Origin: a virus
Virus record (IMG/VR): IMGVR_UViG_3300005095_000126
Coordinates: 1 to 40,286 of that record
DNA: 40,286 bases
Direction: 5' to 3' (one strand)
This document shows, one piece after another, positions 9,592 through 33,027 of the stretch; position 1 is the first letter of the stretch, and the number at the start of each line of letters is the position of its first letter. Both the position numbers and the translations under genes were made by a program. The notes below the pieces were generated by a model that was not told the DNA's origin, made no database searches, and worked only from the letters and a program-made list of their open reading frames with translations.

Positions 9592-9608
9592 CACTTGCTT
9601 GTTATATC
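9580..9608 (+). promoter_or_regulatory. Possible promoter before helix-turn-helix gene
   Basis: TTGAAT at 9580-9585 and TATATC at 9603-9608 with 17-base spacing, partly inside the end of the patatin-like gene and 32 bases before the next ATG. The fit to consensus is moderate. Confidence 0.4.
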
Positions 9609-9640
9609 TACTTCAAAAGACCATAGACGGAGGTGATATT

Positions 9641-14300: not shown

Positions 14301-16966
14301 ATGCTTTGCTGGATTTGCTTAACGACGCGCTGAACCGGGCGCTGGCTAAAGACGGCCTGAAAGTTATTGACTCCTTCGTCGAGACTTTTAGCAAAGGCCT
14401 CAACGAGGCTGAGACCGACCTGGCGAATCCGGGTAGCCTTCACGTCCTCGGGCATGTCGGAGGCCTGGATCACTCTAATTTCTTTCTGTGCCTCCACGAC
14501 CTGCCCGAGGAAGCCCTGGGCGAACTGCACGAGAAGGCCCCCGATGCCTCCGGCAATGTTTCCTCCACCGAGGGTTGCTTGAAGGGCCGTGTTCACACCA
14601 CTGGCGATGAGTGAGATGGCCCCTGCCACCGTTCCGTAAAGGTCCTGGGTGATGGCAACACGCTGTTCTTGCACGGCGAATTGCCTGAGCTGGGACTCGG
14701 AAACTTGTCCCGGGGCCACTCCCAGGGCCTGAGCCGCACGCACTTCTATCTGTGCCCTGGTCGGGGCGTATTCTAGGAGACGCTGGGCCCGCTCTTCGGC
14801 GAGTTGTGAAATGCCCCTTACTTGGGCCTCCGGGAGGATCGCTGCCAGGGCCGACTCTTCAAAGCGCGTGGCCGGGGCTCCTTCGGGCGTGGTGCGGGTC
14901 AGTTGCCCGACAAATTGCGCTAGTGCAGGTTGCATCTGAGAGGTCAGGGGAACTACGACGGCATTTATCATTGCGTCGGAGATGTTTCGTAGCTGCACGT
15001 CAAACTGGGCACCGCGGCGCACAAGAATCTCCCGGCCCCCAAATAGACTCATGAGGGCCTGATTGAGGACCTGCACCTGCTCAAAGCCGGGCATCTGTTT
15101 GAACTCGGCAAAGGAGACACCGGCGTATCCGGCCAGCAGCTCAGGGCTTATGTTGAAACGAAGCTGCATGGAGCGGAACTGGCCGCCGAGCATTTCACGG
15201 ATGGCGAAGAGTGCCCCACCGACCCCCTGTTCCGGGGCAAGCATGGAGAGGAGCTGCACGGCGTTGACTACCTGCTGCTGGGCCTGTGGGCTGGTGGCGT
15301 AGGGGCGTAGACTCGGGTAGATGGACATGGCCGTGAGCACTTCCATGGCCTCGGGGAACTGAATGGGCTGCACTTGGGCAATCTGAATGGCGGACTGCAC
15401 GGCCTGCTGTGCCGCGGTGCGGGACCCCAAGAGGGCCTGCATCGAGGTGAGTCGACCTGCGAGGTCGGCCATGTATTGCGGAATTTGCATTCCGAAAGAT
15501 GCAATTTCTTGGTAGAGCGGCGTGAGGCCCGTTACTCCCCCAGCAGCCGAGTAGAATGGCATGAGGGTCTGGTAGGTGGACTGCATGGGGATCTGATTAA
15601 GGGCCTGGAACATGACTCCGGAGAAACCGAACATCAAGGCCCACTGGAGGTTGGTGAGGTTCATGCTGGTGAACCCCGCAAGGGCCTCACCGATGTCTGC
15701 TAAGGGGCCGAGTTTGAGAGAGGTCCCCAGGGGCAACCTTCCGGCTGCGAAGACTTGTTGAGCTTGTTGCAGGCCCTGCCACCGTTGCATGAGGGTGGAA
15801 AGCTCCATCCCTCCCGGTAGCTTCGCCAGTTCAGCGGGCTTAATACGGCTGACTTCCTGCATGACTTGCGCCATGCTTTCTTTGTGTTTTTTGACCTCAG
15901 CGGCATAAGCCCGGTGTGCCTGGATGAATTCTGAGCTTGAGGGTCCGTGGGTGCGGAGGGCCTCTTCGGCCTTATTGAGGGCCTCTTGCACCATATTGAG
16001 GGAGCGGAAGACCCTTGAGGTGTCAAGCCGCACACCACGGCGTTGCAGGGCCTGGGTGAGTTCGGGGCTGGTCAGGGGAGACAGGAGGTCGGCAATGCGG
16101 TATTCGACTTGTTGTGCCTTACGCTGAACATCGAAAACCGCCGCGTAGCGCCGTTGTCTGGCTGAAAGGATCTGGTCGATCTCTTCAATCTGACCAATGA
16201 CTCCGTAGATGTAACGGCCCATTGCTCCGGGATCTACGCGCTTCTTTGTGTAGACGGGTGTCCCGGAGGCTCCCATGTCGGGCCCCATAAGGGCCACGTC
16301 GGCGTCGATGACGCTTTGGTAGGTCTTTCCAACGGTCTGGAACCCCTGGGCGAATTGCTGGAGAGTGTTGATTACCATGGCGGAGAGGTCTCGGGTAAGA
16401 CGAGCCTCTCGCTGGGCGAAGCCTGTAATCAAACGGTCGAATATTGGGGTTCCTTCAAAGAGCCCGGGCTGGGTTTGTTTGACCTCCATGAGCTTTTGCC
16501 GGGCTCCGAGGACGGCAGCATATTCGTCAATCAACCCACCCTGGGCCATTTCGGTTTTGGCCGCAACGTGGGCGATTTCTCCAAACAGTTGCTGCTCTAC
16601 TGGAGAAGTCTTGACACTAAGGGCCTCAATTAGGGTTTTGATTTGAGATGAATAAAGTTCCTGTGCAATGGGGCCTTTTTGCTGAGCAATGCCGTAGGCA
16701 AAGGTCCGCGCGTCGAAAATTTCTTGAAAACGGCTGGACGGGGGAAAGTGGTAGCTGAATTGGAGCGCCCCGGGGCGGGACAATTGCCCTTCTGCCTGCT
16801 GGGTAACGGATTGGGCCTGTTGGAGCTTCTGCGTGAGGTTGGTGAAGGTGGAGTTGACACTTTCAAGGGTGGCCTGGAGTGCTTGAATAAACTCGTCCAG
16901 GGTGGCGGTAGGGTCCTGCTTAGCGTCTGCGACCTTTTTTGCGTCCGGCTTCTTCTGTTCGGCCAT
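11363..16966 (-). CDS. Tape measure protein
   Basis: At 1,867 residues this is the longest gene. It has long Gln/Ala-rich helical stretches at the N-terminus (about 1-430), a cluster of glycine/alanine-rich hydrophobic segments in the middle (about 760-1100, such as IAGGIGGLLVQFAQGFLG and ALIGGPIANIFATGMG) and a Pro/Thr-rich linker near 1500. This composition is typical of tail tape measures, which set tail length and are ejected with DNA. At the usual 0.15 nm per residue it would span about 280 nm, so a long tail is implied. Start 16966 follows GGAGTG. It overlaps the metallophosphoesterase gene upstream by 47 bases. No peptidase or lysozyme domain was recognised. Confidence 0.8.
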   Translation of the reverse strand: MAEQKKPDAKKVADAKQDPTATLDEFIQALQATLESVNSTFTNLTQKLQQAQSVTQQAEGQLSRPGALQFSYHFPPSSRFQEIFDARTFAYGIAQQKGPIAQELYSSQIKTLIEALSVKTSPVEQQLFGEIAHVAAKTEMAQGGLIDEYAAVLGARQKLMEVKQTQPGLFEGTPIFDRLITGFAQREARLTRDLSAMVINTLQQFAQGFQTVGKTYQSVIDADVALMGPDMGASGTPVYTKKRVDPGAMGRYIYGVIGQIEEIDQILSARQRRYAAVFDVQRKAQQVEYRIADLLSPLTSPELTQALQRRGVRLDTSRVFRSLNMVQEALNKAEEALRTHGPSSSEFIQAHRAYAAEVKKHKESMAQVMQEVSRIKPAELAKLPGGMELSTLMQRWQGLQQAQQVFAAGRLPLGTSLKLGPLADIGEALAGFTSMNLTNLQWALMFGFSGVMFQALNQIPMQSTYQTLMPFYSAAGGVTGLTPLYQEIASFGMQIPQYMADLAGRLTSMQALLGSRTAAQQAVQSAIQIAQVQPIQFPEAMEVLTAMSIYPSLRPYATSPQAQQQVVNAVQLLSMLAPEQGVGGALFAIREMLGGQFRSMQLRFNISPELLAGYAGVSFAEFKQMPGFEQVQVLNQALMSLFGGREILVRRGAQFDVQLRNISDAMINAVVVPLTSQMQPALAQFVGQLTRTTPEGAPATRFEESALAAILPEAQVRGISQLAEERAQRLLEYAPTRAQIEVRAAQALGVAPGQVSESQLRQFAVQEQRVAITQDLYGTVAGAISLIASGVNTALQATLGGGNIAGGIGGLLVQFAQGFLGQVVEAQKEIRVIQASDMPEDVKATRIRQVGLSLVEAFAKSLDEGVNNFQAVFSQRPVQRVVKQIQQSIEKIVMASFGPVAQGMMTGVARTAIAMPGALIGGPIANIFATGMGDISSTEALTQMAGLAGWWSVIRYGRQNLPRAAAAFTGFGLLQHAFSQAENQPFSTTLTEAVAGASIIASPTILGAIGSRIIEALDRFSQQQGNAMQRLMRYGAAIGGMGFIAHGAYTLAQPELNALQRWGSMAQIVGGGMMFVPHPIVQGAGFAVSALGVGLGYFGARQAAETTQAAQENVLGDPIARAIQDALISAQQRVAVFMRQYSVEERLGEDYAQRFQQQAIAATTAPVQGAQNVLEALQPIMREQTRGNEQAFRALSENLSRTLLPTTMKFLQQPQEAFVFEEGKPVKLKAEAELELKKGLTNLLPKADESTIEKLTQILEGRLVTQAQAVTAQREELTQTYTAGALSLVVGKAMEEAIYGKYRIEQIPTSMIQDWTRTAELQERIPTFVQQLTATGFTALGASQTAFKTLPMFGVFGIDESLDLWKSTSLRMARLTKMGAIDFGEWMRRPELFKWASMGLILAGEKPAEYFREPAISWFSKITEEMTKGEQTAGMLLAQPAQAAASSVSQLGQAATKAAQSLEQLAQQAAPKTTPAPQETKPTPQTTSGESPIKENLRAMSQDAKTVGGALWDALKRGGASGLKMLQSVLSPSEVYAGEIPEEEMQTINQALKASKAPTTKAVAEAAAAETETQSPFDVMMTRMAETFKRQYKAALQNFKERASQLEEEPTMDLFTSYIMGVKGRYADQGPLAVERIERAATITGLQMSKRELAEQTALVEGAFQPPEIPQTFYDESIAKQLFREAKERPRSPSTELPLPDTPLGWMGYALGAVPTKEIPYDEPFYRIQRQGENLAFTNISMSGPGITDIALQSRTAANIAYAQDMPLSAAEQLLQRIVTEEAGKVEDPMQALEPAVGRLIQLGALPNLSRQYVLRALEGMKAPESIEAIGRIKPPEMVTPAAAPRPTERREDAGIINAGVVNVYAR

Positions 16967-17792
16967 ATTGCACTCCGTCTACCAAGCGCAGAAGGCGCTT
17001 TGGGATCTCTACTGATGTTTTTAGAGCAATTAGTTGATCTTTGTCCTTAGCTTCGTGCAATATGGCCTCTAAGGTGTCAATGGGGCAGTCTTTGGAGTAG
17101 GCAATGAACCTAACTGTTTCGTTTGGGATGGGTTGGAACTTTCCGTCCTGAATCAATAAGGTGCCGAACCCTACCTGGTCTTGTCGAAAAGCCATGGCCG
17201 TTACCGTGCCTAGTTGAACGTAGTTTGGTTCTACGTGGTAGCGATGAATATGGCCGTTGATGATTACTGCGTCTTTTCTCAGGAACTTTTTGATTTGGTC
17301 GATCGTCCACATTGGAATTCCATACCAAACATCCTGGTAATAGACGTTGTTGTGACTCAGAATCACCTTAGCATCCCCGAAATATGGTCCCCAAGCGGAA
17401 ATTTGGGGGTAGCGTCCGGCATAGGGCCAGCAAAATATTTCCCGCGTGATATGGCATGGATTTCTGATTAGGAAGGCGTTTTTTGAGCTCAGCTTAAGGC
17501 CCAAGTCGTGATTTCCGAGGACGAATAGGAAATCCGTGGCAGGAAAAAGAGATACCAACTCATCTACGATCTTCGTGTTTCTTTTGGAGGTGGTGTCTAC
17601 GGTGTCTCCCAGGAAGATAACTTTGGCCGGCGCGTAATGGTCAATGGTGGAGACGATAAAGCGGACCAGCCGTTTTTCCCATTCGTGGGAGAACTTGGAC
17701 GGTTCAAGGTAGAACTTTTTTCCGATGTGGGCGTCTCCGAAAATGAGGAGACGCTCTTTTTTAAAAACATCTGAAAAGGAGGTCGTTTGCAT
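16920..17792 (-). CDS. Calcineurin-like metallophosphoesterase (second)
   Basis: A 290-aa protein with the metallophosphoesterase set: GDAHIG (Asp20, His22), GDTVD (Asp63), GNHD (93-96), LSHN and NGHIH. It is separate from and not obviously similar to the SbcD-like enzyme outside these motifs, and it ends in a basic tail (GRKKGRRR). It might be a nuclease, a nucleotide or protein phosphatase, or a cAMP-type diesterase; the motif set alone does not decide. Its ATG overlaps the ATG of the opposite-strand gene in the tetranucleotide CATG, leaving no intergenic space and no visible ribosome binding site. Confidence 0.82.
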   Translation of the reverse strand: MQTTSFSDVFKKERLLIFGDAHIGKKFYLEPSKFSHEWEKRLVRFIVSTIDHYAPAKVIFLGDTVDTTSKRNTKIVDELVSLFPATDFLFVLGNHDLGLKLSSKNAFLIRNPCHITREIFCWPYAGRYPQISAWGPYFGDAKVILSHNNVYYQDVWYGIPMWTIDQIKKFLRKDAVIINGHIHRYHVEPNYVQLGTVTAMAFRQDQVGFGTLLIQDGKFQPIPNETVRFIAYSKDCPIDTLEAILHEAKDKDQLIALKTSVEIPKRLLRLVDGVQYGRTEEAGRKKGRRR

Positions 17793-18189
17793 GACGCGTG
17801 GAGTTTACATCGGTAAGAAGAACGAGGGTGACTTCGACCTCGTCTCTACTGGGGATTACATAAACCCAATCTCTGCAACGTTCAAGCTCAAAGACCTCCA
17901 GCGGACTGTTTCACTCGTTCAGCCCCTCTATCTCATCATCAACGATGTTGAGGTGGAGTATATCAAGGTGGAGATTTCGGGACGGATTACTTTGATTCGG
18001 ACCTTCTTGTCTTGGGACCAGCAAAACTGGACCCAGCGTTTGGTGCTTGAGGAAAACATCAATGCCATAGGGCGGACTGAGGTTCGTCAATTTTTCATCA
18101 AGTATATGGTTGATGACTTCCTCAAGTATTTTAATTTGAAGGACGAGGGCTCTTATCGCCAAATCAAATTAAATCTCGTGTGGGTGTAA
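17791..18189 (+). CDS. Hypothetical protein, 132 aa
   Basis: The start at 17791 follows AAAGGAGGT (17775-17783), which lies inside the divergent metallophosphoesterase gene. The protein looks beta-rich with repeated Ile/Val strands (LYLIINDVEVEYIKVEI) and a short helical C-terminus. Phage structural or DNA-associated proteins often look like this, but nothing specific is recognised. It is followed five bases later by a 63-aa gene and then the SSB promoter. Confidence 0.7.
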   Translation: MTRGVYIGKKNEGDFDLVSTGDYINPISATFKLKDLQRTVSLVQPLYLIINDVEVEYIKVEISGRITLIRTFLSWDQQNWTQRLVLEENINAIGRTEVRQFFIKYMVDDFLKYFNLKDEGSYRQIKLNLVWV

Positions 18190-18193
18190 GGTT

Positions 18194-18385
18194 ATGCCGG
18201 TCAACATAAATGGTGTTGGTTTCGAGGAAATTTTGGGTTTAAGACAGCGCGTCTCCCAGCAGGAGACGGAGTTCCTTTCCGAGCAGATCCGCCGCGCTCA
18301 GGAGCGCGAGGGCGGAGTCCGTTTTAGTTTTAAGACCCATCTCGATTATAAGTATGATGACATTGCCCGCGTCTTTACCGATTAA
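18194..18385 (+). CDS. Small hypothetical protein, 63 aa
   Basis: A short protein with an amphipathic helix (residues 10-38, rich in Gln, Glu and Arg) and a beta-like end. A weak TAAGG precedes the ATG. It closes the small two-gene unit before the promoter at 18389. Function unknown. Confidence 0.55.
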   Translation: MPVNINGVGFEEILGLRQRVSQQETEFLSEQIRRAQEREGGVRFSFKTHLDYKYDDIARVFTD

Positions 18386-18388
18386 GGC

Positions 18389-18417
18389 TTGACTTCCTAA
18401 TTCCAATCAGACATAAT
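18389..18417 (+). promoter_or_regulatory. Sigma-70-like promoter of SSB gene
   Basis: TTGACT at 18389-18394 and CATAAT at 18412-18417 with 17-base spacing, 35 bases upstream of the SSB ATG. The leader then holds AGAAGGAGGAT, a strong ribosome binding site. Confidence 0.75.
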
Positions 18418-18452
18418 AGAGACATCACAACAAAAAAGAAGGAGGATAAGGT

Positions 18453-19700
18453 ATGGCTCGTCGTCGCCGAATTGCGTCTTTACGTGAACGTGTTCGTAAG
18501 AATGCCAGTTCTACTGGCGGAACGTCACTGCTCGCTCTCCCGGAGGGGATGGATTTCTTTCGGGAGAAGAAGGGCAAAGTGACTATTGACATTTTGCCTT
18601 ATGAAGTAACTCAGAAACACCCGGACGAGGTGGAGCCGGGGGAGATCTGGTATAAGCGCCCGTTCTGGGTGCATTATAAGATAGGCGTGGATGAGAACGC
18701 CTATATTTGTCCCAGGAGTGTTGGGCAAAAGTGCCCGATCTGCGCCTATCGGGAGAAGCTCATCAATGAAGATTATGAGGGCAACAAGGAAGTGATTGAT
18801 GCCCTCAAGCCCAAGCTCCGTGTCCTCTACGCGATTCGGGTGCTCAACAACCCGAATTACGAAGAGGACAAAGTGTATCTTTGGCAAATTGCCTACGCCA
18901 ATTTCCAGAAGCAGCTCGATCGGGAGATCACCGAAGGTGAAGAGGAGTGGGCTGACTTCCCCGATCCCGACAATGGGTATCACCTTCGGGTCAGGTTCGT
19001 TGAGGAGACCTTTAATGGTCGGAAATTTCTCAAAGCCGACCGCATTGATTTCATCGAACGCAGCGAGCCCATTCCGGACGAACTGTTGGATCAGGTCCCT
19101 CAGCTTGATGATCTTCTAAAGATCTTGCCTTACAAGAAGTTGGAGAAGATCTTCTGGGAGGGGGAGGACGCTCCCGTGAGCATGGAGGAGGGGCAGGACG
19201 AGGAAGCCGAAGAGAAGCCCAGTCCCAAGCCCAAGGCTAAGGTAGAGGAAGTTGTCGAAGAGGAGGAAGAAAAGCCCCGTCCTCGCCGTCCGCGTAAAGA
19301 GGAGGATGAGGAAGCCGAAGAGAAGCCCCGCCCTAGGCCCCGTAGACGTGATGAGGACGAGGAAGCCGAAGAGAAGCCTCGTCAGCGCCGTCCTCGTCGC
19401 CGTGACGATGATGAGGACGAAAGGAAGCCCCGACGCAAGCCCCGCGCTGATGAGGAAGAGGATGAGGAAAAGCCTCGTCACAATCGGTCCAGATCCCGTC
19501 GTCGCGATGAGGATGGGGAAGAGGATGAGGAAAAGCCTCGGTCCAAGTCCAAGGCTAAGGTAGAGGAGGAAGAGGACATCCCGGTCGAAGGTAGGTGTCC
19601 TTATGGTCACGAATTTGGCGCTGACTTTGAGGCCTTTGCCGATTGCGATACGTGCGAGATGTGGACTGAGTGTCAAGAGGCCTACGAGAAAAATAACTAG
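18453..19700 (+). CDS. gp32-like single-stranded DNA-binding protein
   Basis: The N-terminal 215 residues resemble T4 gp32-type phage SSBs: a basic leader, then a zinc-binding set His75, Cys86, Cys94 and Cys97 (GQKCPIC) whose spacing is close to that of gp32. Residues about 235-375 are low-complexity, alternating DEEAEEKP and RPRRR blocks encoded by DNA direct repeats. The C-terminus has a second Cys group, Cys382, Cys398, Cys401 and Cys407, in a C-P-x-G-H-x-F-G...C-x2-C context. Acidic SSB tails normally recruit replication partners; this one is unusually long and mixed in charge. It coats single strands and acts with UvsX and the UvsY-like protein downstream. Confidence 0.8.
   Translation: MARRRRIASLRERVRKNASSTGGTSLLALPEGMDFFREKKGKVTIDILPYEVTQKHPDEVEPGEIWYKRPFWVHYKIGVDENAYICPRSVGQKCPICAYREKLINEDYEGNKEVIDALKPKLRVLYAIRVLNNPNYEEDKVYLWQIAYANFQKQLDREITEGEEEWADFPDPDNGYHLRVRFVEETFNGRKFLKADRIDFIERSEPIPDELLDQVPQLDDLLKILPYKKLEKIFWEGEDAPVSMEEGQDEEAEEKPSPKPKAKVEEVVEEEEEKPRPRRPRKEEDEEAEEKPRPRPRRRDEDEEAEEKPRQRRPRRRDDDEDERKPRRKPRADEEEDEEKPRHNRSRSRRRDEDGEEDEEKPRSKSKAKVEEEEDIPVEGRCPYGHEFGADFEAFADCDTCEMWTECQEAYEKNN
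19200..19567 (+). repeat. Direct repeats within SSB gene
   Basis: Three exact copies of GAGGAAGCCGAAGAGAAGCC start at 19200, 19308 and 19359. Two copies of GAGGATGAGGAAAAGCCTCG start at 19458 and 19521. A 19-base string beginning CCAAGGCTAAGG brackets the block at 19231 and 19549. The repeats encode the charged tail and could change in number by slippage or recombination. Confidence 0.85.
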
Positions 19701-19749: not shown

Positions 19750-20871
19750 ATGTCAAAAGAAATGGAATTTGAAAGAACTGTGGTAGACGACATGGCCGAG
19801 GAAATTGCCGAGGCCGTGGATGAAGCGGAGAAGGCTGAGCTTGCTCAGCTTGACGCCGATCTGCACGAGCGGGAGCTCGTGCATACCGGGTCGGTGATGC
19901 TCAATCTGGCCTGCTCCGACCGCTGGCATGGTGGCTTTCCGATCGGAGCTATGGCCAATATCATAGGGGACTCCTTCGTGGGTAAGTCTTTTTTGGGTCT
20001 CCACCTGCTTGCTCATGCAGCTTATGACGAGCGGTTTAAAGACTTTACGCTGGTTTATGATGATGTCGAGCGGAGGTTCATGTTCGATGAGGAGTTGTTT
20101 GGACCGAAGTTCGTTGAGCGGGTTGAAGCTCCCCCGAAGGACCACTCCGATACCGTTTTTGACTGGTTTGTGAATTTGGAAACTCTGTTCAAAAAGGGTA
20201 AACCCTTTATCTACGTGCTCGACTCTTTAGATGCTCTGACCGGAGGCGATGAGGAAGAGAGGCTCACCAAGATGGCCGAAGGTAAGGGTGCCGGTGGCTA
20301 CGGCACGATCAAGGCCAAAAGCCTCTCGGAAATGCTCAGGGCCATTCGGGTCAAGTTGAAGAACACCGGATCCTTCCTTCTAGTCATTTCCCAGGTGCGA
20401 GAGTCTCTTGATGCAATGTCGTTTGAGCGCTACCGCAGGGCTGGTGGTAAGGCCCTCAAGTTCTACTGCACGCACGAGGTGTGGCTTACGCGGGCTAGCG
20501 CCATAACGAAGACGACCCGTGGGCTTACCCGCGAGATTGGAGTAAACGTCAAAGCCAAGGTCAAGAAAAATAGCCTCACGGGCCGACCCCGGGAAGCCTC
20601 CTTTGCGTTTCTGCACGGTTACGGGGTGGATGACATCCGTTCCGTGGCCGAATTTCTTTGCACTACCAAGGTTTTCACCAAGAAGAAGGGAACTATTGAG
20701 GCCGAACCTTTTGACTTCTCCGGCACCTTGGAGAAGTTCATTTCCTTCATTGAAGAAGATCCTGAGCGTGAGAAGCGCCTCTATGAACTCGCCGAGCAGA
20801 CATGGCGGGAAATAGAGGAAAGCCTGAAACCCAAGCGCAAACCCGTCTGGCAACGCTTCCAGCGTCAATAG
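19750..20871 (+). CDS. UvsX/RecA-like recombinase
   Basis: A 373-residue RecA-fold ATPase: Walker A GDSFVGKS (73-80), Walker B FIYVLDS with Asp158, and a following glycine-rich loop region (GKGAGGYG) before LLVISQVRE. Length and layout fit phage UvsX recombinases, which load on SSB-coated strands and drive strand exchange for recombination-dependent replication. The first 45 residues are acidic and helical. TTAGGAGG precedes the start. It sits between SSB and, further on, a UvsY-like gene, the expected partner set. A 9-bp hairpin (TGCACGAGC, 19862-19883) lies in its coding sequence. Confidence 0.88.
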   Translation: MSKEMEFERTVVDDMAEEIAEAVDEAEKAELAQLDADLHERELVHTGSVMLNLACSDRWHGGFPIGAMANIIGDSFVGKSFLGLHLLAHAAYDERFKDFTLVYDDVERRFMFDEELFGPKFVERVEAPPKDHSDTVFDWFVNLETLFKKGKPFIYVLDSLDALTGGDEEERLTKMAEGKGAGGYGTIKAKSLSEMLRAIRVKLKNTGSFLLVISQVRESLDAMSFERYRRAGGKALKFYCTHEVWLTRASAITKTTRGLTREIGVNVKAKVKKNSLTGRPREASFAFLHGYGVDDIRSVAEFLCTTKVFTKKKGTIEAEPFDFSGTLEKFISFIEEDPEREKRLYELAEQTWREIEESLKPKRKPVWQRFQRQ

Positions 20872-20889
20872 TTTCCAACCACTAAGATA

Positions 20890-20925
20890 GCACCTGCCGC
20901 CGTGGCGGGTGCTGCCATCTTTTTC
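20890..20925 (+). terminator. Intrinsic terminator after recombinase gene
   Basis: GCACCTGCC/GGCGGGTGC stem (20890-20898 with 20904-20912, one mismatch) with a 5-base loop, followed by TGCCATCTTTTT. The T-run is offset by a few bases. Confidence 0.65.
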
Positions 20926-20926
20926 C

Positions 20927-20954
20927 TTGACAAGATGCTCTCCTCAGTTATAAT
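20927..20954 (+). promoter_or_regulatory. Consensus sigma-70 promoter
   Basis: TTGACA at 20927-20932 and TATAAT at 20949-20954, both perfect consensus, with 16-base spacing. It lies directly after a terminator and 31 bases before the ATG at 20986. It should be the strongest host-polymerase promoter in the window and drives the 314-aa gene, zinc-ribbon protein and clamp loader. Confidence 0.88.
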
Positions 20955-20985: not shown

Positions 20986-21930
20986 ATGGCTATGCAGAAG
21001 ATAGGAGACGTTCGTGGGTGTGGAAAGGAGACGCTTGAGCAGATATTTGAGCGGCTCCTTGCCCGTCAGGAGGTCCTGTATGGGCCCCTGAGCCAGCGAG
21101 AGAAGTGTGTATCTTTTCTCGCTGATTTTTGGATGGGGGTCCCGATGCGTGCGAATCGCACGCATCAGTATAATGTGTGCTCTAAGCACTACCCGCTGAC
21201 CTTTTGGGCCTTCCTGTCGGGGTATTTCTACCCCAAGTGTCAGCGGGTGGTGTTTAAGATGGTCACGGCCCGCATTGGGTATGCGATCCAGCATTCGCGG
21301 TCGCATACCATCAAGAAGTTCTTCATGCACCGCGGGCCGGATTGGTTCTACCCCACGGACTTCGTGGGGTTATCTTTTTGTGTGGCCGCCGGTAGTCAGT
21401 CGGCGGTCTATATGAATACTGATCCGCTGGAGTCGGTTCCACTCTCCATTTCGCGGATGGTGGAGCGGCTCAGGGAGGCCGGATACCTTCAGCCTTTTAG
21501 GCAGGGTTACATGCGGGTCAAGCGGCCTTTCAAGTCCCAGCTCTTGACGCTCGTGCGGAGTCTTGTAGACGCACGGCGTCTTGCGGTCATGCACGAGCGC
21601 CTCAAGCGAGAGGGTTGGGACTACGTCTCTTCGATCTGGCGGCGAGTGCTGGAGCGCTTGCCGGTCGGGATCGAGGAGGCGCTCGTTGCCGGCTTCGTGG
21701 TCTTTCAGGTCACGCGGACCCTGCGGTTTGGAGACGTATCGGCAATGGGGAGCATCTTCGACGATGAGGAGCGGGCCGGGCTCTTTATTGATTGCCTCCG
21801 CACCGTCGTGGAGCTTCCCGAGATGGAGGCCATCCAGCGGGAGCGTCATCACGCCCGGACCCGGCTCTTTGAGGGTGGTGGTAAGGCTGCTGAGGCTGAG
21901 GTGCAGAAGGAGGTGAGCCATGGCGCGTAG
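20986..21930 (+). CDS. Hypothetical protein, 314 aa, with hairpin-rich coding sequence
   Basis: The start at 20986 follows GAGGAGGAA and the consensus promoter. The protein is helical with several Arg-rich segments and aromatic-rich loops (GPDWFYP), plus winged-helix-like sections; no family is recognised. A primase-like or DNA-binding replication role would suit its position before the clamp loader, but that is guesswork. The coding DNA is unusual: strong inverted repeats occur at 21094-21124, 21144-21166, 21191-21248, 21278-21309, 21350-21370 and 21548-21599. It overlaps the zinc-ribbon gene by 11 bases. Confidence 0.75.
   Translation: MAMQKIGDVRGCGKETLEQIFERLLARQEVLYGPLSQREKCVSFLADFWMGVPMRANRTHQYNVCSKHYPLTFWAFLSGYFYPKCQRVVFKMVTARIGYAIQHSRSHTIKKFFMHRGPDWFYPTDFVGLSFCVAAGSQSAVYMNTDPLESVPLSISRMVERLREAGYLQPFRQGYMRVKRPFKSQLLTLVRSLVDARRLAVMHERLKREGWDYVSSIWRRVLERLPVGIEEALVAGFVVFQVTRTLRFGDVSAMGSIFDDEERAGLFIDCLRTVVELPEMEAIQRERHHARTRLFEGGGKAAEAEVQKEVSHGA
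21094..21599. repeat. Cluster of inverted repeats inside a coding gene
   Basis: Arms that I checked base by base: 21094-21105 with 21113-21124 (12 bp, one G-U); 21144-21154 with 21156-21166 (11 bp, 1-base centre); 21191-21200 with 21239-21248 (10 bp), enclosing 21219-21224 with 21229-21234; 21278-21286 with 21301-21309 (9 bp); 21350-21357 with 21363-21370 (8 bp); 21548-21556 with 21591-21599 (9 bp), enclosing 21567-21572 with 21576-21581. The message should be strongly structured. Confidence 0.85.
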
Positions 21931-22102
21931 GCGGGTGGTTCGGGCAAGCAAGGGGTTTAAGTCACTTCCGTGTCGGGTTTGTGGCACGGAAGAGGTGGTG
22001 GACTACTACGCCGTTGAGTGCATCTGCTCCAGATGCACTCAACGGCTTGTCAACTATATCCGTCGGAAGGACGCAGAAGCCGGGTTGACAAAAAGGAGGT
22101 AG
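21920..22102 (+). CDS. Small zinc-ribbon protein
   Basis: A 60-aa protein with a basic N-terminus and Cys18-x2-Cys21 and Cys36-x2-Cys39 knuckles (an extra Cys at 34), as in a zinc ribbon. AAGGAGGTGAGCC precedes the ATG, which lies within the end of the 314-aa gene. It may bind nucleic acid or a replication protein. Both Cys pairs are encoded within DNA inverted repeats (21965-21992 and 22010-22046), so the sequence is constrained at two levels. The clamp loader starts two bases after its stop. Confidence 0.7.
   Translation: MARRRVVRASKGFKSLPCRVCGTEEVVDYYAVECICSRCTQRLVNYIRRKDAEAGLTKRR
21965..21992. repeat. Inverted repeat in zinc-ribbon gene
   Basis: CTTCCGTG at 21965-21972 and CACGGAAG at 21985-21992 form a perfect 8-bp stem around a 12-base loop. 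It spans the codons of the first Cys pair. Confidence 0.7.
22010..22046. repeat. Perfect 17-bp hairpin in zinc-ribbon gene
   Basis: GCCGTTGAGTGCATCTG at 22010-22026 is followed by a CTC loop and its exact reverse complement at 22030-22046. No T-run follows, so it is not an intrinsic terminator. It spans the codons of the second Cys pair and ends about 60 bases before the clamp loader start. Confidence 0.95.
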
Positions 22103-22104
22103 GA

Positions 22105-23019
22105 ATGCCGTCTCTTACGGAGAAGTATCGTCCTCAAAGTTTCGACGAAGTAGTCGGGCAGGAAAAGGCCGTCGGCATCCTTAAAGGCTTTGTGAAGGAT
22201 GCCGACAGGCCGTCGTCTTATTTATTTGCGGGCCCCTCTGGCACGGGGAAGACCACCTGTGCCCGGATTTTTGCCAAAGAGTTGGGGGCCCAACCACACG
22301 ACATTGCCGAGGTGGATGCCGCGGACATGCGCGGCATTGACACCATCCGGGAGATGAAACAGTGGGCCATGGCCAAGCCGTTTGGTAAGGCCAAGGTTTG
22401 TATTTTTGATGAGGCCCACATGTTTACCCGGGAAGCCCAGAATGCCCTCCTGAAATTGTTGGAAGACCCACCAAAGCACACTTACTTCATCATCTGCACC
22501 ACGGACCCCCAGAAGCTCATCCAGACGGTCAAGTCCAGATGCGTGCGAGTTGATTTTGAGTCGGTTGATGCGGATGCGATTGCAGGGTTGTTGAAGTGGA
22601 TTGCGGAGGAAGAAGATATTGACTTTCCGAAGAGCTTATTGCTCCGAATTGCTGACAGTGCTTTGGGCTCTCCCCGGGTGGCAATCAAAATACTGGAGAA
22701 GGTGAAACATCTGCCTCCGAAAGAAGCCGCGAAGGCCATTGGGAACGCTGCCGAGGAGTCAGATGCGGTGATTCGCCTATGCCGGTTACTGCTCCGCGGC
22801 GCGGCGTGGACGGATGTGGCTAAGGTTCTCAAGGAGCTCAAAGACGGATACCATCCGGAACAGGTGCGCCGCGTAGTGATGAGCTATATGGCATCTGTTT
22901 TGCTCAATAAGAAGAGCGACCAAGCAGCCGTGATTCTCGACATCTTTCGTGACCCCGTGTGGGAATCTTTTCCCACGCTCGTGTTATATTGTTACGAGGT
23001 AGTGGAGGGCGGGAAATGA
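22105..23019 (+). CDS. Clamp loader ATPase (RFC small subunit / DnaX-like)
   Basis: This 304-aa AAA+ protein begins with EKYRPQSFDEVVGQE, then has Walker A GPSGTGKT (43-50), Walker B with DEAH (102-105), the LLKLLEDPP helix and the SRC motif (144-146) typical of clamp loaders. It lacks the zinc module of bacterial DnaX and so is nearer RFC small subunits or T4 gp44. It should load a sliding clamp for the DNA polymerase; no clamp was seen in the window. The start follows AAAAGGAGGT; a longer in-frame start at 22018 overlaps the zinc-ribbon gene and is rejected. Its stop overlaps the next ATG (ATGA). Confidence 0.92.
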   Translation: MPSLTEKYRPQSFDEVVGQEKAVGILKGFVKDADRPSSYLFAGPSGTGKTTCARIFAKELGAQPHDIAEVDAADMRGIDTIREMKQWAMAKPFGKAKVCIFDEAHMFTREAQNALLKLLEDPPKHTYFIICTTDPQKLIQTVKSRCVRVDFESVDADAIAGLLKWIAEEEDIDFPKSLLLRIADSALGSPRVAIKILEKVKHLPPKEAAKAIGNAAEESDAVIRLCRLLLRGAAWTDVAKVLKELKDGYHPEQVRRVVMSYMASVLLNKKSDQAAVILDIFRDPVWESFPTLVLYCYEVVEGGK

Positions 23020-23549: not shown

Positions 23550-23772
23550 GGAACTGCAAGAGTGCATAGATACACTCTTGCGAAACAGGCTGACCACCTA
23601 TAAAGGTGGGAACGAAGGTGACATTTTGACAGCATTTTGCAAGGCGGTGGAAGGTGTCCCGAACGTTCATGTTGAGCGAGTGCCGTCAAAAATCGTATCA
23701 ATCTATTATGCGATATGCGATGGGGAATGCGAACTAGAAACCGAAGTGCCGGAGTTCGAGAGAACCCGCTAA
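23530..23772 (+). CDS. Small hypothetical protein, 80 aa
   Basis: AAGGAGGAAAAAAG precedes the ATG at 23530, which lies 20 bases inside the preceding gene. The protein has a helical N-terminus and a beta-like C-terminus with CDGECELETEVPEF. No known family is recognised. It overlaps the beginning of the helicase reading frame. Confidence 0.6.
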   Translation: MRRVTSRELQECIDTLLRNRLTTYKGGNEGDILTAFCKAVEGVPNVHVERVPSKIVSIYYAICDGECELETEVPEFERTR

Positions 23773-26567
23773 TACCACTGCCACTTGCGTTGGGGATCAC
23801 CCTCCAGGCGGCTGAAAATGGAGAACGGCTGAGTCCGGCGGTCAAGGCTGCCGTGAAATACTACTGGACCCACGGCAAGCTGCCGCCCAAGTATGCCTCT
23901 GTTGTGCAGCGGGCTGCTGATAAACTGGCCGTCAAGTATCCCCACGCCGAGCAGGTTCCGGTGACGGCCACCAAGTTTGCAAAGCCCTTAAACGGGGTTT
24001 TGTTAGAACTTCGGTTTCCACCAAATAAGCGCCTCTCAAAAGAGATCGCTGCCATTCCGGGAGCTTCCTACGATAGGTCTACCAAGAAGTGGGTGGTTCC
24101 CCTTCGTGCCGATACAATCGACATCCTTGAGGACCTTGGGTTCGTTGTCCCACCGTATGCTCGGGATTTGGCTGAGCGTGGTAGGGATTATCCCAAAGTC
24201 CATCCTGCGCAGGTTGGCCTTCCCAAGTGGTATCTGCGAAAGCTCCTCCCATACCAGCGTCTGGGTGTTGCCTTTATGGAGTCGCGCGGGGGGCGTGTTT
24301 TGCTCAATGACGAGATGGGCCTGGGTAAGGCTCAACCGATTTGGATAAGCCAGGTCCTCACCCCAAATGGCTGGAAATATCTGGCCGATCTGACTCCTTA
24401 TGAGTTGATTTATAGCCGTGAGGGAAAGCCGGAGCGGGTTCTGGGCATCTTTCCCCAGGGCGAGAAGATGGTCTATCGCCTCCGGTTTGAAGATGGCGCT
24501 TATACCTACTGCTGCAATGACCACTTGTGGGTGGTTACGGTCGATGGCGGCCCTGAGCAGGTCGTTCCTTTCACGCAAGTGCGGGAGTGGTTTGAAGCCG
24601 GGCGGACGGTCTCCGTGCCCACGCCTGCTCCTATTCAGCACATGGCGGCTTTTAGGGAGGAGGGCCCCGACCCGTTCCTGGTTGGAATCTTAATCAGCCG
24701 CGGTGTGCGTGATAAGGACGCCCTGCGCATCACCGTCCTGGACTCGGAGGTAGGGGCTTACGTGCGCCGCGCCGCCGAGCCCTTCTGCCACGTTGACGTG
24801 ACTCTCGGCCCGTATGGGTGGGTGCTCACACTTCGTCCGAAGAAGCGACACAAGCTCACTTATGACTACCTTGAGTTCTGTGCCAAGAACAGGCGCATTC
24901 CGACCTTTGCCTATACCGGGAGCGTTGCCGAGCGGGAGTTGTTGCTCAAGGGCCTTGTCGGCACGACTGGAGACCTGCAAGAGTTCACCGTTGAGGTCCA
25001 TGAGGAAGGTCTACGCGTAGACATCATTGAACTCGCGCGGTCGTTAGGAATGTTGGCCAAAGAGACCGAAGAGGGTGTTAGGGCACGGAGGTCTCCCACA
25101 CGACGATTGGTCGGGATTGATGAGGTCGGAATGGAGCCGTGTGCCTGTATTTCCGTCTCCGGAGCCTCGAAGACTTATGTCACTGATGATTACGTAGTGA
25201 CACACAACACCGTGCAGGCACTGGCTTGGTGTGAAGCCCATCCCGAGAAGAGGCCAGTGCTCGTAATTTCCCCGGCCTCCGCAAAATACAATTGGGTGGA
25301 GGAGATCAAGAAGTGGTCTTTGAGAGAGCCGGGGATCTATGTGGTCGACGGGCGATTTTCCCGGGGCCGGACCCTGGAGGAGTGCTTCGTTGATGGAGAT
25401 GAGGAATCAGAAAATATTTATGTGGTAATCAATTACGACATTCTCGGCTCCCGGAAGGAAAAACGGAAGACCAAAGGGAATAAGGAGCGCACCGTAGTCA
25501 ACCCGGGATGGGTGGACGAGCTTCTTCTCTACGACTTCAAGGTGCTCATAGTCGATGAGTGCCACCGCGTAAAGAACATGAAGGCCCAGCGGTCCAAGGC
25601 TGTGTATTCTCTGGGACGCAAAGCCCCTCACGTCATAGCCATGTCCGGCACCCCCATCCAGAATGGTCCCCATGAGTTCTATCCAATCTTGAAGCTGGTA
25701 GACCCCACCATCGTCCCCAGCTACGATGAGTTTCTCATTAGGTATTGTGGGGCCAAAAAGACTCCCTGGGGGTTGAAGCCCGGGAAGCCGACCAACATTG
25801 AGGAGCTGCACAACCTCCTCACCTCTACGGTCATGTTGCGCCGGCGTAAGGCCGACGTGCTCAAAGACCTGCCCGAGAAGATCCGGACAGCGATTCCATT
25901 CAGGCTGGAAAACATGAAGGCTTACATTGAAGGCGTGAAGGCCTTCGCCGAGTGGGCCCGGTCTATGGGTATCGAGAGTGAGGCCGACATCAATGCCGTG
26001 GTCTTGGCGCAATTGGCTAAGTTGCGGAGTCTCGTTGCGGAGTTGAAGATGCCACAAGTGATAGACTGGATTGAGACCTTTCTCGAATCCGACCAGAAGC
26101 TCGTGGTATTCGGCCACCATCAAAAGGTGCTTGAAGCGATTCACAACCGCTTCAAGAAAGAGTCCGTGCTCCTTTACGGGAAGGTGCGCTCGGCCAAGGA
26201 ACGGCAACGTATTCGCGACCGGTTTCAGGAAGATCCAAATATCCGTCTGTTTGTAGGGAATTTTCACGCCGCCGGGGAGGCCATTACACTTACGGCGGCC
26301 TCACACGTCTGTTTTGTTGAGCTCGATTGGGTGCCCGGGGTCCTTCAGCAGGCCGAGGACAGATGCCACCGAATTGGTCAAAGATTTCCCGTCAACATCT
26401 GGTATCTGCTCGCCAAAGATACGGTAGACGACCTCCTTGCGGAGAAGGTCATCTTTAAGCACGGGGTTGTGTCGCAGGTATTGGATGGGAAAGAAGAGCA
26501 GTGGTTCGACCGCACTGCCCTTCTTTCCGTGGTGGAAGGCCTCTTACAGCAGGCTGCCAGGTATTAA
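23715..26567 (+). CDS. SNF2-family helicase interrupted by an intein
   Basis: The spliced host protein (about 657 aa) is a SMARCAL1/HepA-type SNF2 ATPase. A short HARP-like segment (ASYDRSTKKWVVPL, about 116-129) is followed by motif I DEMGLGKT, motif II VDECHRVKN, motif III MSGTPIQN, and motif VI QQAEDRCHRIGQ. Such enzymes remodel or anneal forked DNA. A 293-residue intein interrupts motif I between Lys and Thr, so the ATPase should be inactive until splicing. The start is uncertain: ATGs at 23715 and 23727 overlap the previous gene and have no clear ribosome binding site, and a TTG further in is possible. The stop shares TTAA with the convergent portal stop. Confidence 0.9.
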   Translation: MRWGMRTRNRSAGVRENPLIPLPLALGITLQAAENGERLSPAVKAAVKYYWTHGKLPPKYASVVQRAADKLAVKYPHAEQVPVTATKFAKPLNGVLLELRFPPNKRLSKEIAAIPGASYDRSTKKWVVPLRADTIDILEDLGFVVPPYARDLAERGRDYPKVHPAQVGLPKWYLRKLLPYQRLGVAFMESRGGRVLLNDEMGLGKAQPIWISQVLTPNGWKYLADLTPYELIYSREGKPERVLGIFPQGEKMVYRLRFEDGAYTYCCNDHLWVVTVDGGPEQVVPFTQVREWFEAGRTVSVPTPAPIQHMAAFREEGPDPFLVGILISRGVRDKDALRITVLDSEVGAYVRRAAEPFCHVDVTLGPYGWVLTLRPKKRHKLTYDYLEFCAKNRRIPTFAYTGSVAERELLLKGLVGTTGDLQEFTVEVHEEGLRVDIIELARSLGMLAKETEEGVRARRSPTRRLVGIDEVGMEPCACISVSGASKTYVTDDYVVTHNTVQALAWCEAHPEKRPVLVISPASAKYNWVEEIKKWSLREPGIYVVDGRFSRGRTLEECFVDGDEESENIYVVINYDILGSRKEKRKTKGNKERTVVNPGWVDELLLYDFKVLIVDECHRVKNMKAQRSKAVYSLGRKAPHVIAMSGTPIQNGPHEFYPILKLVDPTIVPSYDEFLIRYCGAKKTPWGLKPGKPTNIEELHNLLTSTVMLRRRKADVLKDLPEKIRTAIPFRLENMKAYIEGVKAFAEWARSMGIESEADINAVVLAQLAKLRSLVAELKMPQVIDWIETFLESDQKLVVFGHHQKVLEAIHNRFKKESVLLYGKVRSAKERQRIRDRFQEDPNIRLFVGNFHAAGEAITLTAASHVCFVELDWVPGVLQQAEDRCHRIGQRFPVNIWYLLAKDTVDDLLAEKVIFKHGVVSQVLDGKEEQWFDRTALLSVVEGLLQQAARY
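24330..25208 (+). other. Intein in SNF2 helicase (Ala1 type), dead homing endonuclease
   Basis: The intein runs 293 residues from Ala1 (AQPIWISQVLTPNGW) to His-Asn (YVVTHN), with Thr as the first extein residue. Block B is seen as CCNDHLW. Ala1 inteins splice without the first N-S shift. Two LAGLIDADG-like helices are recognisable at intein residues 116-125 (FLVGILISRG) and 205-215 (LLKGLVGTTGD), but the catalytic acids expected near their ends are Ser-Arg and Thr-Thr, so nuclease activity is probably lost. Splicing residues look intact. Confidence 0.88.
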
Positions 26568-28371: not shown

Positions 28372-29433
28372 CTATATCTCCATAAAGATGTTTTCTTGCT
28401 GATGCATTGCTGGTAAATCATGAGGCAGCAGTCCACGCTTTATGTCACTGTTTATTGAGCAGTGACGGAAAGTTGTTGACAATATTCTGTCACTTATTGA
28501 CTTGTCACCACAGTCGAATCTCAACTCTTTGACACCATCTAGCAGCACTTCCATTACACGACTCATTATGACGTTCCGTGCCCAACTACCGATATAGCCA
28601 TTTTTGACGCATTTAAGTATGGCGTCACCATAATCTTTAGCGCTTTCTAGGCTGATTGTCAGCCTGGAAAGTTTTGGAATGTTGATTGGTTCCTGCGCAG
28701 TGACTGAAAGCATCTTCTTGATTAGGACATCCTTCTTTTTCTCGAAGTCATCAGCTACCGGCACGAATCCACATCTGAGGGCTAAAGATGATTCATAATT
28801 TGAACGCACTGGTAAGTAAATTGCGCGAAACTTTTGGCGGATATTGACGATAAAGAACATAAATTCGAGGAAGGCGTAGTTTACTATCCTCGTAATTGTA
28901 ATTTCTTTGTCTCCTCGGCATTCACAAGTAATCTTCCGCACCACCGTGTTGCCATCAACGACGGTGGATACGTAGGTAAAGCGGGGCTTCTTTGCGTATT
29001 TGCGGAAGATGATGGTCGAAGTGATTTGCCTTTCTCCGGAGAGGGTGACGGTCTCAGTGGTCCCCTCTTGTTTGTCTTCCACAACGGCAACACTGCTTCC
29101 GTATTGGAATAGGTTCTCATAGTCGTAGAGAGCCCCGGAGATTCGGGCGTGCTTGAGGCCCCATGACTGGCCGAAGCATTGGTAGTCGTCAGGGACTCGC
29201 AGGCCCGTCATGGCCTGCGCGGCGAGGATCATGCCTTCAAGGAGTGCACCGGCCCCCTGGCCATACTGGGCTGCCTTTTCCGGGGTGACGTAAAAGGTGC
29301 GGTAGCAGGTGCCGCCCCCTTTGCACTTCGTAAGTATGCGGACCGGCACTACTTCCCGCTGAACTGTGGGGGACGGCCCGCGGGAAACATACCTGCTTTC
29401 TGCAATTCTGCGGAACTTAACTTTTTTCTTCAT
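28372..29433 (-). CDS. Hypothetical protein with shared N-terminal module, possible GNAT-like fold
   Basis: A 353-residue protein whose residues 29-53 contain VP-x14-RTFYVTPEK with exactly the same spacing as in the proteins at 1557 and 29864, preceded by a basic leader of 20 or more residues. Residues about 185-235 (IRQKFRAIYLPVRSNY, SSLALRCGF) faintly recall the N-x2-S-x2-L-Y-x-K-x-GF end of GNAT acetyltransferases; this is weak. It is upstream of and nearly contiguous with the portal gene, so it is probably expressed late and may be a virion protein. Its second half is AT-richer than the first. Confidence 0.65.
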   Translation of the reverse strand: MKKKVKFRRIAESRYVSRGPSPTVQREVVPVRILTKCKGGGTCYRTFYVTPEKAAQYGQGAGALLEGMILAAQAMTGLRVPDDYQCFGQSWGLKHARISGALYDYENLFQYGSSVAVVEDKQEGTTETVTLSGERQITSTIIFRKYAKKPRFTYVSTVVDGNTVVRKITCECRGDKEITITRIVNYAFLEFMFFIVNIRQKFRAIYLPVRSNYESSLALRCGFVPVADDFEKKKDVLIKKMLSVTAQEPINIPKLSRLTISLESAKDYGDAILKCVKNGYIGSWARNVIMSRVMEVLLDGVKELRFDCGDKSISDRILSTTFRHCSINSDIKRGLLPHDLPAMHQQENIFMEI

Positions 29434-29863: not shown

Positions 29864-31315
29864 ATGCCGATAAGACCGCATCTAGTTCCTCTGCTCAAAG
29901 GAGCCTTAGACCCCCGGCGCGGTATTATCCTGCGCACTTATTACGTCCGCCCGGACAAGCTCGCCGAGATGATCGAACGTGCCCGCACGGTTCCCATCAA
30001 AAGCTACGTTGCTGATATTCCGAACTACTCGGCCCTCTCGAAGGCCGTCAAAATAGACGACATTTCAGGCCTGCGGGACCTATTTCCTAAGAAGTCGGCA
30101 GCTTGGGGATACGTCAAAGACAGGGCGAAGATGAAAACCCCGGCCCAGCAGCGGGGCCGTCTTAGCCAAACCCTCTATGCCCTCGCCCTCCGTCCAGACA
30201 CCATCGTCGTTCAGGCCGGACGGAAGTTCCTCCGCGGGGCTTCGACTAAATACGATGTCGTAGTGATTGAGTCGACCAAACCTACCAAGGACGGCGGGGC
30301 CATGAAGGTAAAATATACCCCCGTCCTTCAACAGACTCCGCATCCAGAGCAGCACGGATTGGAGCTTTCGCGCATTCTGGCTCTAATCAACATGCGTCCG
30401 CGGAAGCTGACGGACGTGATTCTTTCCCTTGTTACAAAAGAGACCTTCAAGGACAAGACCTCTTTGCTTCCCAATCTGCTCTTGTCCATTCACACGTTTA
30501 TGGCTAGTCCGGTGGTGTGGACGGAGGTCTTATCTACCTGGATTACCTACTGGGCGACTGATGAGAAGTTTCGGCTAAGTAACCACGCCCTCTTGCAGCA
30601 TCTTGCCGCCCTGCGCACGATTAACAGACGTAGATTCGATGCCATTTTGGATACCTACGAGATCCCTCCGACTATAAGTCACGCATTGAAATTGGCCGAG
30701 ACCGGGTTTGAGGCTGTTATTGAGTCACGCAAGCTCGATGAGATACAAAAGGCCATTCTCTTGAATATGACCACCCCGGAGAAGCAAGTGCCGGTCCTCT
30801 ACGCCTACGTGCAGGGCCACCCGGAACTTAGCCTCTCAATCAAGGCCGCCGTGGCGAACCTCGTCCTTACCGACAAAGCGGCTAAATTATTTGAAGCCTA
30901 CTTTCAAAACGCCGAGGTTTTGGACGAGTTCATTGCTTGGTGCCGCGATGGGGCCCCGCCCACCTGCGCCATGCTCATGGCGGAGATGAAGGCGGCCAAA
31001 CACCAAAACTGGCATTTCATTCCTTACTCTCTTGCCCAGCATGTTCCGGGCCACCCCTTAATTTGCCAGGCCCCTACGCGGTTTCTTAAAATCCTCCCCC
31101 TGCCGAAATTTGACCTGTCGAAGTTCACTAAGAAGACCGTCCACGTGCATTTGGATGTGCCGGAGCTGGACACCACGCCGTTTGTGCATTTTCAGCCCGT
31201 CATGGCCTTCAAGAAGGAGGAAAACGGCTTGGAGCTCAAGGATGCAAAGGTGATGAAGGAAGAGGGGGATTGTGTCGTCGTCCTCCACCCTATTTTGGCG
31301 ATTGCGAAGAAATAA
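29864..31315 (+). CDS. Helical protein with shared N-terminal module, 483 aa
   Basis: The first 32 residues match the transferase-like protein at 1557 at 15 of 32 positions, including MP, LVP at 7-9 and LRTYYVxPDK at 23-32. The remainder is different: a long helical region (about 165-370) that looks like stacked helices, then a beta-like C-terminal part (KTVHVHLDVPELD). No catalytic motif is seen. The shared N-terminus on an unrelated body is the main clue, suggesting a common destination such as the capsid interior. GAGGTG precedes the ATG. Confidence 0.72.
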   Translation: MPIRPHLVPLLKGALDPRRGIILRTYYVRPDKLAEMIERARTVPIKSYVADIPNYSALSKAVKIDDISGLRDLFPKKSAAWGYVKDRAKMKTPAQQRGRLSQTLYALALRPDTIVVQAGRKFLRGASTKYDVVVIESTKPTKDGGAMKVKYTPVLQQTPHPEQHGLELSRILALINMRPRKLTDVILSLVTKETFKDKTSLLPNLLLSIHTFMASPVVWTEVLSTWITYWATDEKFRLSNHALLQHLAALRTINRRRFDAILDTYEIPPTISHALKLAETGFEAVIESRKLDEIQKAILLNMTTPEKQVPVLYAYVQGHPELSLSIKAAVANLVLTDKAAKLFEAYFQNAEVLDEFIAWCRDGAPPTCAMLMAEMKAAKHQNWHFIPYSLAQHVPGHPLICQAPTRFLKILPLPKFDLSKFTKKTVHVHLDVPELDTTPFVHFQPVMAFKKEENGLELKDAKVMKEEGDCVVVLHPILAIAKK

Positions 31316-32495: not shown

Positions 32496-33027
32496 CTGGC
32501 GGAAACTTTATGGGAACATTTTTCACTTTGGACTGGAGCAACTGATTTTAGGGCGGAGGGTGACTAAAGAGGCCCTCCGCTCGTTCTTCCCCAACGCTCC
32601 CGACCAGGTCTTCGAGGGAGCGTGGCAAAAATTGAAGGCAACGGCCAAGTCTGATCTCGCGACATTTCTGCGAGATTTAAAGCGTCTGGGTTACACCTTC
32701 TTGTCAGAGGCCGTGATTATTGATCCAAAGTCAAAGAAGATCTACCGCCCGGACATTTTGGCCGTAAAGGCCGGAGATATGGTCAACAGTCGGGTGGTGG
32801 TAGTCGAAATCAAGTCAGGCAAGCATTACGACCTCGACAAGCTTCGCCGATACAAAAAACTTGTCGAGGACAGGTTTGCCGCACCAACCGTCGCCGTTGT
32901 TTACTTAGGTGGGAGTAACACCATTAAGGTCATCGGTCACGACAATAAAGTCCAAATACTAAAGAAAGGAGTCAAGTCATGGGAACTAAAGCCGGTCAGA
33001 AGATCAAAGAGCGTCTCGAAAAAGTAG
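32473..33027 (+). CDS. PD-(D/E)XK nuclease-like protein
   Basis: The C-terminal half shows the nuclease core: YRPDILAV (Asp94), a short loop, then VVVVEIKSG (Glu112, Lys114), followed by a helix containing KLRRYKKLVEDRF. This is the D...E-x-K signature of restriction-like and Cas4/RecB-like nucleases. No Cys cluster is seen. The start is uncertain: a GTG at 32473, inside the previous gene, is the first reasonable choice; the frame upstream of it is antiparallel to real coding sequence and is rejected. It overlaps the reductase start by 49 bases. Function could be recombination, end processing or host DNA attack. Confidence 0.72.
   Translation: MILSWPSSWRKLYGNIFHFGLEQLILGRRVTKEALRSFFPNAPDQVFEGAWQKLKATAKSDLATFLRDLKRLGYTFLSEAVIIDPKSKKIYRPDILAVKAGDMVNSRVVVVEIKSGKHYDLDKLRRYKKLVEDRFAAPTVAVVYLGGSNTIKVIGHDNKVQILKKGVKSWELKPVRRSKSVSKK

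Follow-up and report, generated by a model that had tools for sequence, protein, structure and literature searches.

Dense hairpins across a coding replication operon of a double-stranded DNA phage and their tentative origin in quasi-palindrome mutation

Introduction

What lays a dense run of strong hairpins across consecutive genes of a DNA virus: selection on the folded messenger, a process acting on the DNA, or base composition itself? We took up this question in a single window, the whole stretch of 40,286 bases analysed here (IMG/VR virus record IMGVR_UViG_3300005095_000126, positions 1 to 40,286), which is possibly a fragment. A sequence-only reading had reported dense strong stems at 21094-22046, placed them in two coding genes and suggested, among other roles, a structured RNA with a function besides coding.

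Results

Gene neighbourhood of the structured stretch

Genes and signals around the stretch follow one another in this order:

18453-19700, + strand: gene conserved among related phages, a second structured peak
19750-20871: UvsX/RecA-like gene (PHROG match phrog_97)
20888-20914, + strand: terminator-like intrinsic hairpin 3' of the recA/UvsX-like gene, with a 12-pair stem and a 3-nt loop, then CCATCTTTTT
20927-20954, + strand: sigma-70 consensus promoter TTGACA-16-TATAAT (16-bp spacer)
20986-21930, + strand: ORF of 314 aa with an AGGAGG ribosome site, the window's most hairpin-rich large gene
21920-22102, + strand: ORF of 60 aa with a zinc-knuckle-like CxxC...CxCxxC pattern and its own GGAGG site (zinc ORF)
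22105-23019, + strand: clamp-loader subunit gene, T4 gp44-like (phrog_5846, E 4.5e-71)
From 23019: gene that sits after the clamp loader both here and in relatives

The terminator and the promoter lie directly upstream of the stems, as the reading had stated. The promoter matches the consensus at 12/12 positions and ranks first among five promoter-like sites between 15 and 25 kb, and its sequence suggests strong transcription. By their matches to phrog_97 and phrog_5846, the neighbouring genes resemble the T4-type replication module (UvsX, gp44/gp62 clamp loader). The order is rotated relative to related phages, in which it runs clamp loader, 23019-like, 18453-like and recA. Between recA and the clamp loader the window holds the 314-aa ORF and the zinc ORF, and no recognisable counterpart of either was found in the related phages. 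The product of the 18453 gene, for which a PHROG search returned no match, is possibly a gp32-like single-strand-binding protein, the name being our suggestion. Further upstream, a strong terminator-like hairpin at 17729-17756 (GGGCGTCTCC...GGAGACGCTC, then TTTTTT) lies where the divergent genes 16920-17792 (- strand) and 17725-18189 (+ strand) overlap.

Hairpins exceed expectation and reach into a third gene

Every stem that the reading had listed at 21094-22046 was found again, including the 12-bp stem with one G-T pair and the 17-bp stem. The individual stems between 20,986 and 22,400 are:

21094-21124, + strand: 12-pair hairpin with one G-T, then ATTTTTG; terminator-like, within the 314-aa ORF
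21144-21166: near-perfect 11-bp palindrome with a 1-nt centre, without a second copy in the window
21183-21256, + strand: long hairpin with 26-nt arms, 81% complementary, 22 nt separating the arms
21266-21339: 8-bp stem CGGCCCGC/GCGGGCCG (21266-21273/21332-21339) around the next hairpin
21278-21309: perfect 9-bp stem, 14-nt loop
21350-21370, + strand: perfect 8-bp hairpin, then TATCTTTTTG; terminator-like, within the 314-aa ORF
21548-21599: perfect 9-bp stem, 34-nt loop
21965-21992: perfect 8-bp stem within the 60-aa ORF
22010-22046: perfect 17-bp hairpin, 3-nt loop, across the codons for CxCxxC in the 60-aa ORF
22171-22206: perfect 12-bp hairpin, 12-nt loop, within the clamp-loader gene
22316-22337: perfect 8-bp stem near the end of the structured stretch

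That such stems lie beyond chance was borne out. Across 20986-22400 we counted 9 perfect stems (at least 8 bp, loop at most 30 nt) where dinucleotide shuffles led us to expect 0.49 (maximum 4 in 300 shuffles), and 15 imperfect stems against an expected 1.45. The longest ones were hard to obtain by synonymous shuffling: 17 bp was reached in 1 of 400 shuffles of the 60-aa ORF, and 12 bp likewise in 1 of 400 shuffles of the clamp-loader segment.

Folding energies were then compared with shuffles that preserve codons and protein, a control that the reading had proposed for all genes of the window. The 314-aa ORF stood out, with z -7.0 under synonymous-codon shuffling (120-nt windows, 60 shuffles), -8.4 with protein and codon counts kept and -7.7 with dinucleotides kept as well; it thus folds more than such shuffles at z -7 to -9. 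Its folding energy averages -50 kcal per 120 nt; almost every other gene in the window falls between -17 and -40. The excess over codon-preserving shuffles amounts to -8.8 kcal per 120 nt, compared with a mean of -0.81 (standard deviation 1.39, most extreme -5.0) among 153 genes of related phages; for the zinc ORF the excess is -12 to -13 kcal per 120 nt. The hairpins are a genuine and exceptional anomaly of codon arrangement.

Such folding might be put down to a hot habitat, to GC content or to base composition alone. The 314-aa ORF has the highest third-position GC (0.73), and the IVYWREL content would fit a warm host, at about 60 C. Yet z stays below -7 in both the synonymous and the dinucleotide-preserving synonymous shuffles, and related phages with equal IVYWREL content show no excess, the trend being opposite. 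These comparisons refute composition or habitat as sole cause, an explanation that we regard as very improbable.

The excess is present in the two genes named by the reading but does not end there: the structured stretch continues to ~22,350, into the clamp-loader gene. That gene is structured only over its first ~300 nt (~360-nt segment tested), with z about -4 at 22105-22464 and +0.5 at 22465-23019.

The reading had also pointed to other coding hairpins and to the need for a genome-wide control. The virus is indeed mildly hairpin-rich, with 51 perfect stems against 14-17 expected (1.4-fold in related-phage loci), and the stretch is its peak. Mild structure extends virus-wide: with the two ORFs set aside, the mean is -2.1 kcal per 120 nt, against -0.9 in relatives, and the stretch lies within a milder structured block of replication genes at 17.7-23.5 kb. 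Within this block, codons 1-240 of the 18453 gene (18453-19172) reach -8.6 kcal per 120 nt, compared with -1.3 +/- 1.3 in 44 homologues, and the 23019 gene reaches -5.1 compared with -0.4 in homologues. Other structure peaks are a stretch at 17725-19000, the small genes 6738 and 9584, and 36042; genes 6738-6947, 9584-9877 and 36042-36473 have a folding excess of -5 to -10 kcal per 120 nt that is larger on the sense strand. The replication block thus has a lineage-specific feature, and the finding is where it peaks.

The stretch is a coding operon

The 314-aa ORF is a coding gene, and the stretch a coding operon of 314-aa ORF, zinc ORF and clamp loader, because the frames have ribosome sites and a coding codon pattern, the genes overlap (the zinc ORF starts 11 nt inside the 314-aa ORF) and a stop-free frame as long as the 314-aa ORF arose in 0 of 3000 shuffles. 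GC by codon position is 0.63/0.42/0.73, and codon scores in the correct frame far exceed those in both alternative sense frames. A large structured non-coding RNA, like the GOLLD or ROOL RNAs of phages and with the ORF accidental, would account for a strong-looking promoter followed by ~1.4 kb of folded sequence, and phages and bacteria are known to have large ornate RNAs (PMC12286853). All the coding evidence speaks against it, as does the continuation of the structure into the conserved clamp-loader gene; the window gave no Rfam hit at the gathering threshold, GOLLD and ROOL included, and no hit in a tRNA scan. We consider this explanation hardly credible.

For the 314-aa protein, no match was found in Pfam, PHROG, PDB, INPHARED phages, PLSDB plasmids, IMG/VR, GTDB or 62 related loci, a result weaker than true absence, as homologue search by exact-peptide seeding misses distant relatives and records very close to the window may be missing from the collections. 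No homologue of the zinc ORF was found either, including among the 62 related loci. Two further ideas were considered and rejected. For a programmed frameshift leading from the zinc ORF to the clamp-loader frame, inspection by eye found no slippery heptamer ahead of the 17-bp hairpin. For hidden ribosome sites, the accessibility of the three starts falls within the range of other genes.

The stems might instead serve a purpose of their own as DNA hairpins, such as single-strand initiation sites or a promoter-driven R-loop replication origin, in which case the 314-aa protein could be an initiator. Their strand symmetry, strong folds under DNA parameters at 21151 and 21901 and the site between the recA and clamp-loader genes would suit this, and the protein carries faint winged-helix hints (12 bits to Pfam Fe_dep_repress; weak GntR/DtxR/MarR rows in a Foldseek search that gave no significant match). 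However, the AlphaFold model behind that search, made without an alignment, is unusable (pLDDT 40), GC skew does not change direction here and AT content is not high. Neither of the two main palindromes recurs, which makes them unlike iterons and led us to reject repeated operators. We judge a dedicated DNA function improbable.

Several other coding features of the window were recorded. Four otherwise different proteins (genes 1557, 29864, 28372 and 10245) have in common a short motif close to the N-terminus, RT(Y/F)YVxP(D/E)K or GYWVNPQK, at 1632-1652 (+), 29939-29959 (+), 29275-29295 (-) and 11226-11246 (-), and differ in sequence after it; the motif could be a shared tag for targeting or packaging. 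A homing-endonuclease domain match lies inside the helicase match of the SNF2-like helicase gene (23715-26567), and the ribonucleotide reductase gene (32979-36029) has an intein splicing domain match, so that both genes look intein-containing. By eye, 8770-9591 encodes a patatin-like protein (GSGVNFDAHIGAIKAL, VSGGSLVAAAYA) directly 3' of the DNA polymerase gene.

Clamp-loader homologues are conserved as proteins but lack the structure

The clamp-loader segment is the part of the stretch that can be tested in homologues. In the corresponding 360 nt, z ranged from -1.3 to +1.4 among the eight closest homologues (41-45% identity); some of the more distant, AT-rich homologues went down to -2 to -3.4, and no value among the 26 was more extreme than -3.4. 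Clamp-loader homologues thus retain the protein without the structure, the very pattern that the sequence-only reading had named as speaking against an RNA function.

Strand symmetry and codon tests point in different directions

With protein and codon counts fixed, the excess of the 314-aa ORF is -9.4 kcal per 120 nt on the sense and -8.6 on the antisense strand, a ratio of 0.92; pooled with the zinc ORF, the values are -9.01 and -9.06. The antisense/sense ratio in the peak is therefore about 0.9-1.0. Simulated genes tuned for sense RNA folding by synonymous swaps (n=9) gave ratios of 0.54-0.81, and simulated genes carrying inverted copies (n=10) gave 0.81-1.26, both sets being few and simple. 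In contrast to the near-symmetric peak, the 18453 gene is sense-led (whole-gene ratio 0.71), and the 36042 and 6738 genes likewise lean to the sense strand at about 0.7.

The one G-U mismatch that the reading had taken as a sign of selection on RNA does not carry that weight. Among imperfect stems, GT/(GT+AC) was 0.73 compared with 0.64 in the null, so G-T is not clearly enriched, and the G-U fraction lies below the null on both strands (z -2.4 and -3.4), the pairs being more strictly Watson-Crick. Selection on RNA would require sense to exceed antisense clearly and G-U to be preferred over A-C, and neither was clearly seen in the peak; the stems are strand-symmetric and mostly Watson-Crick, as template switching would have them. 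The suggestion of a structured RNA with a function is upheld in its strong local excess at the codon level, but not as RNA-specific selection, antisense excess being about equal to sense.

Amino-acid sequence was examined as well. Its order adds nothing in the 314-aa ORF (mean -40.8 for synonymous shuffles, -40.5 for permuted ones); in the zinc ORF the sequence itself plays a part in the 17-bp hairpin (means of -40.3 for synonymous and -36.5 for permuted shuffles). Simulated template-switch genes showed an amino-acid contribution in 11 of 12 cases (mean -1.2). Third positions of the 314-aa ORF are 5% A, the lowest among all genes, and 45% G. Against phage codon usage the ORF has z -8.5 on the sense and -4.6 on the antisense strand; its codon composition stabilises sense RNA only. 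RNase E-like RNWUU motifs number 8 in this ORF against 14.5 expected (z -2.35, lowest of 25 genes).

Near strand symmetry and the lack of clear G-T enrichment favour a DNA-level origin, and the null result for amino-acid order and the third-position composition favour a sense-RNA effect. The third-position composition could stem from RNA selection or, conceivably, from a base bias linked to transcription.

Discussion

Our tentative preference, to which we give somewhat less than an even chance, is transcription-associated quasi-palindrome mutation under protein constraint, and we place it narrowly ahead of selection for a folded messenger. A lineage-specific inverted-repeat hot spot would underlie the coding operon. 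Where synthesis stalls or becomes exposed in strongly transcribed DNA, the polymerase may briefly use the nearby opposite arm as template, and imperfect inverted repeats would become near-perfect ones (quasi-palindrome correction). Purifying selection on the proteins would pass mainly silent or tolerable changes, and the resulting messenger would be dense in hairpins, any added stability or polarity being a by-product, perhaps a useful one. Template switching is known to create and repair perfect hairpins (PMC8794818), transcription raises quasi-palindrome mutations in yeast (PMC3820800) and functional coding genes can hold perfect inverted repeats (PMC6649704).

Both the template-switch origin and its tie to transcription from the promoter are our inference, and several features speak for the origin. 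The excess is near-equal on both strands and within the range of the inverted-copy simulations, G-T is not clearly preferred and pairs are mostly Watson-Crick, the stretch spans three unrelated genes and the eight nearest clamp-loader homologues are unstructured over its part, the amino-acid contribution in the zinc ORF is what an inverted copy predicts, and the whole virus is hairpin-rich. Against this origin, amino-acid order contributes nothing in the 314-aa ORF, unlike in nearly all simulations, codon composition helps the folding of sense RNA only, and about 12-25 template-switch events would be required in this single gene. If template switching is filtered by selection on the proteins, the results for strand ratio, G-T and amino-acid order can be reconciled. 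In the collections searched we found no close relative that would show the events directly.

A somewhat more doubtful, still serious contender is that the messenger was directly selected for dense folding: an early transcript structured through its synonymous sites, resistant to endonucleases and with polarity coupled to translation, an untranslated transcript being stopped at the intragenic terminator-like hairpins. Two hairpins with U-runs inside the 314-aa ORF (21094-21124 and 21350-21370) would, if working, tie transcription to close translation. The codon arrangement looks tuned without help from amino-acid order, the shift in composition favours folding of the sense RNA alone, RNWUU motifs are depleted, and the other structured genes of the window (18453, 36042 and 6738) lean to the sense strand. 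Structural selection on viral ORFs is reported as widespread, with DNA viruses showing it least (PMC6544989). Such selection sits poorly with an antisense excess nearly equal to sense, outside the range of the nine RNA-tuned simulations, with the missing wobble preference and with the unstructured clamp-loader homologues; the RNase E motif depletion is modest and may just mirror pairing. A function of the RNA is thus possible, hinted at by third-position A and motif depletion, but not the reading that we favour. Its boldest form, which we hold to be unlikely, is an early replication-operon transcript of a dsDNA phage folded over nearly its whole coding length, a dual-function, nuclease-proof and translation-gated messenger; such an almost fully folded transcript would recall the genome-scale ordered RNA structure known from RNA viruses.

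The anomaly belongs to an already described kind, and its density is unusual. As in structured coding sequences (PMC6544989), synonymous codons are arranged so that the ORF out-folds its shuffles; here the excess lies 5-6 standard deviations beyond related-phage genes, extends over three genes in a row and is almost the same on both strands. Coding palindromes in the mitochondria of Nematomorpha likewise place perfect inverted repeats in functional protein genes, with template switching or repeat conversion proposed as cause (PMC6649704); their arms reach 284 bp, whereas here arms of 8-26 nt occupy one 1.4-kb stretch of a dsDNA virus. Near-perfect, Watson-Crick, strand-symmetric stems recall quasi-palindrome correction (PMC8794818, PMC3820800), although no ancestor or close relative showing an event accompanies them here. 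The GOLLD and ROOL ornate RNAs (PMC12286853) share the large folded transcript and the phage context, but here the transcript is coding and without an Rfam match.

Structured coding sequences are usually taken as evidence of RNA selection; at this locus, an extreme case, the simple test of setting the excess on two strands against simulated origins fails to favour that view, and one G-U pair spotted by eye is insufficient to decide. As a small natural test case, the locus helps to tell selection on messenger structure apart from mutation that writes hairpins.
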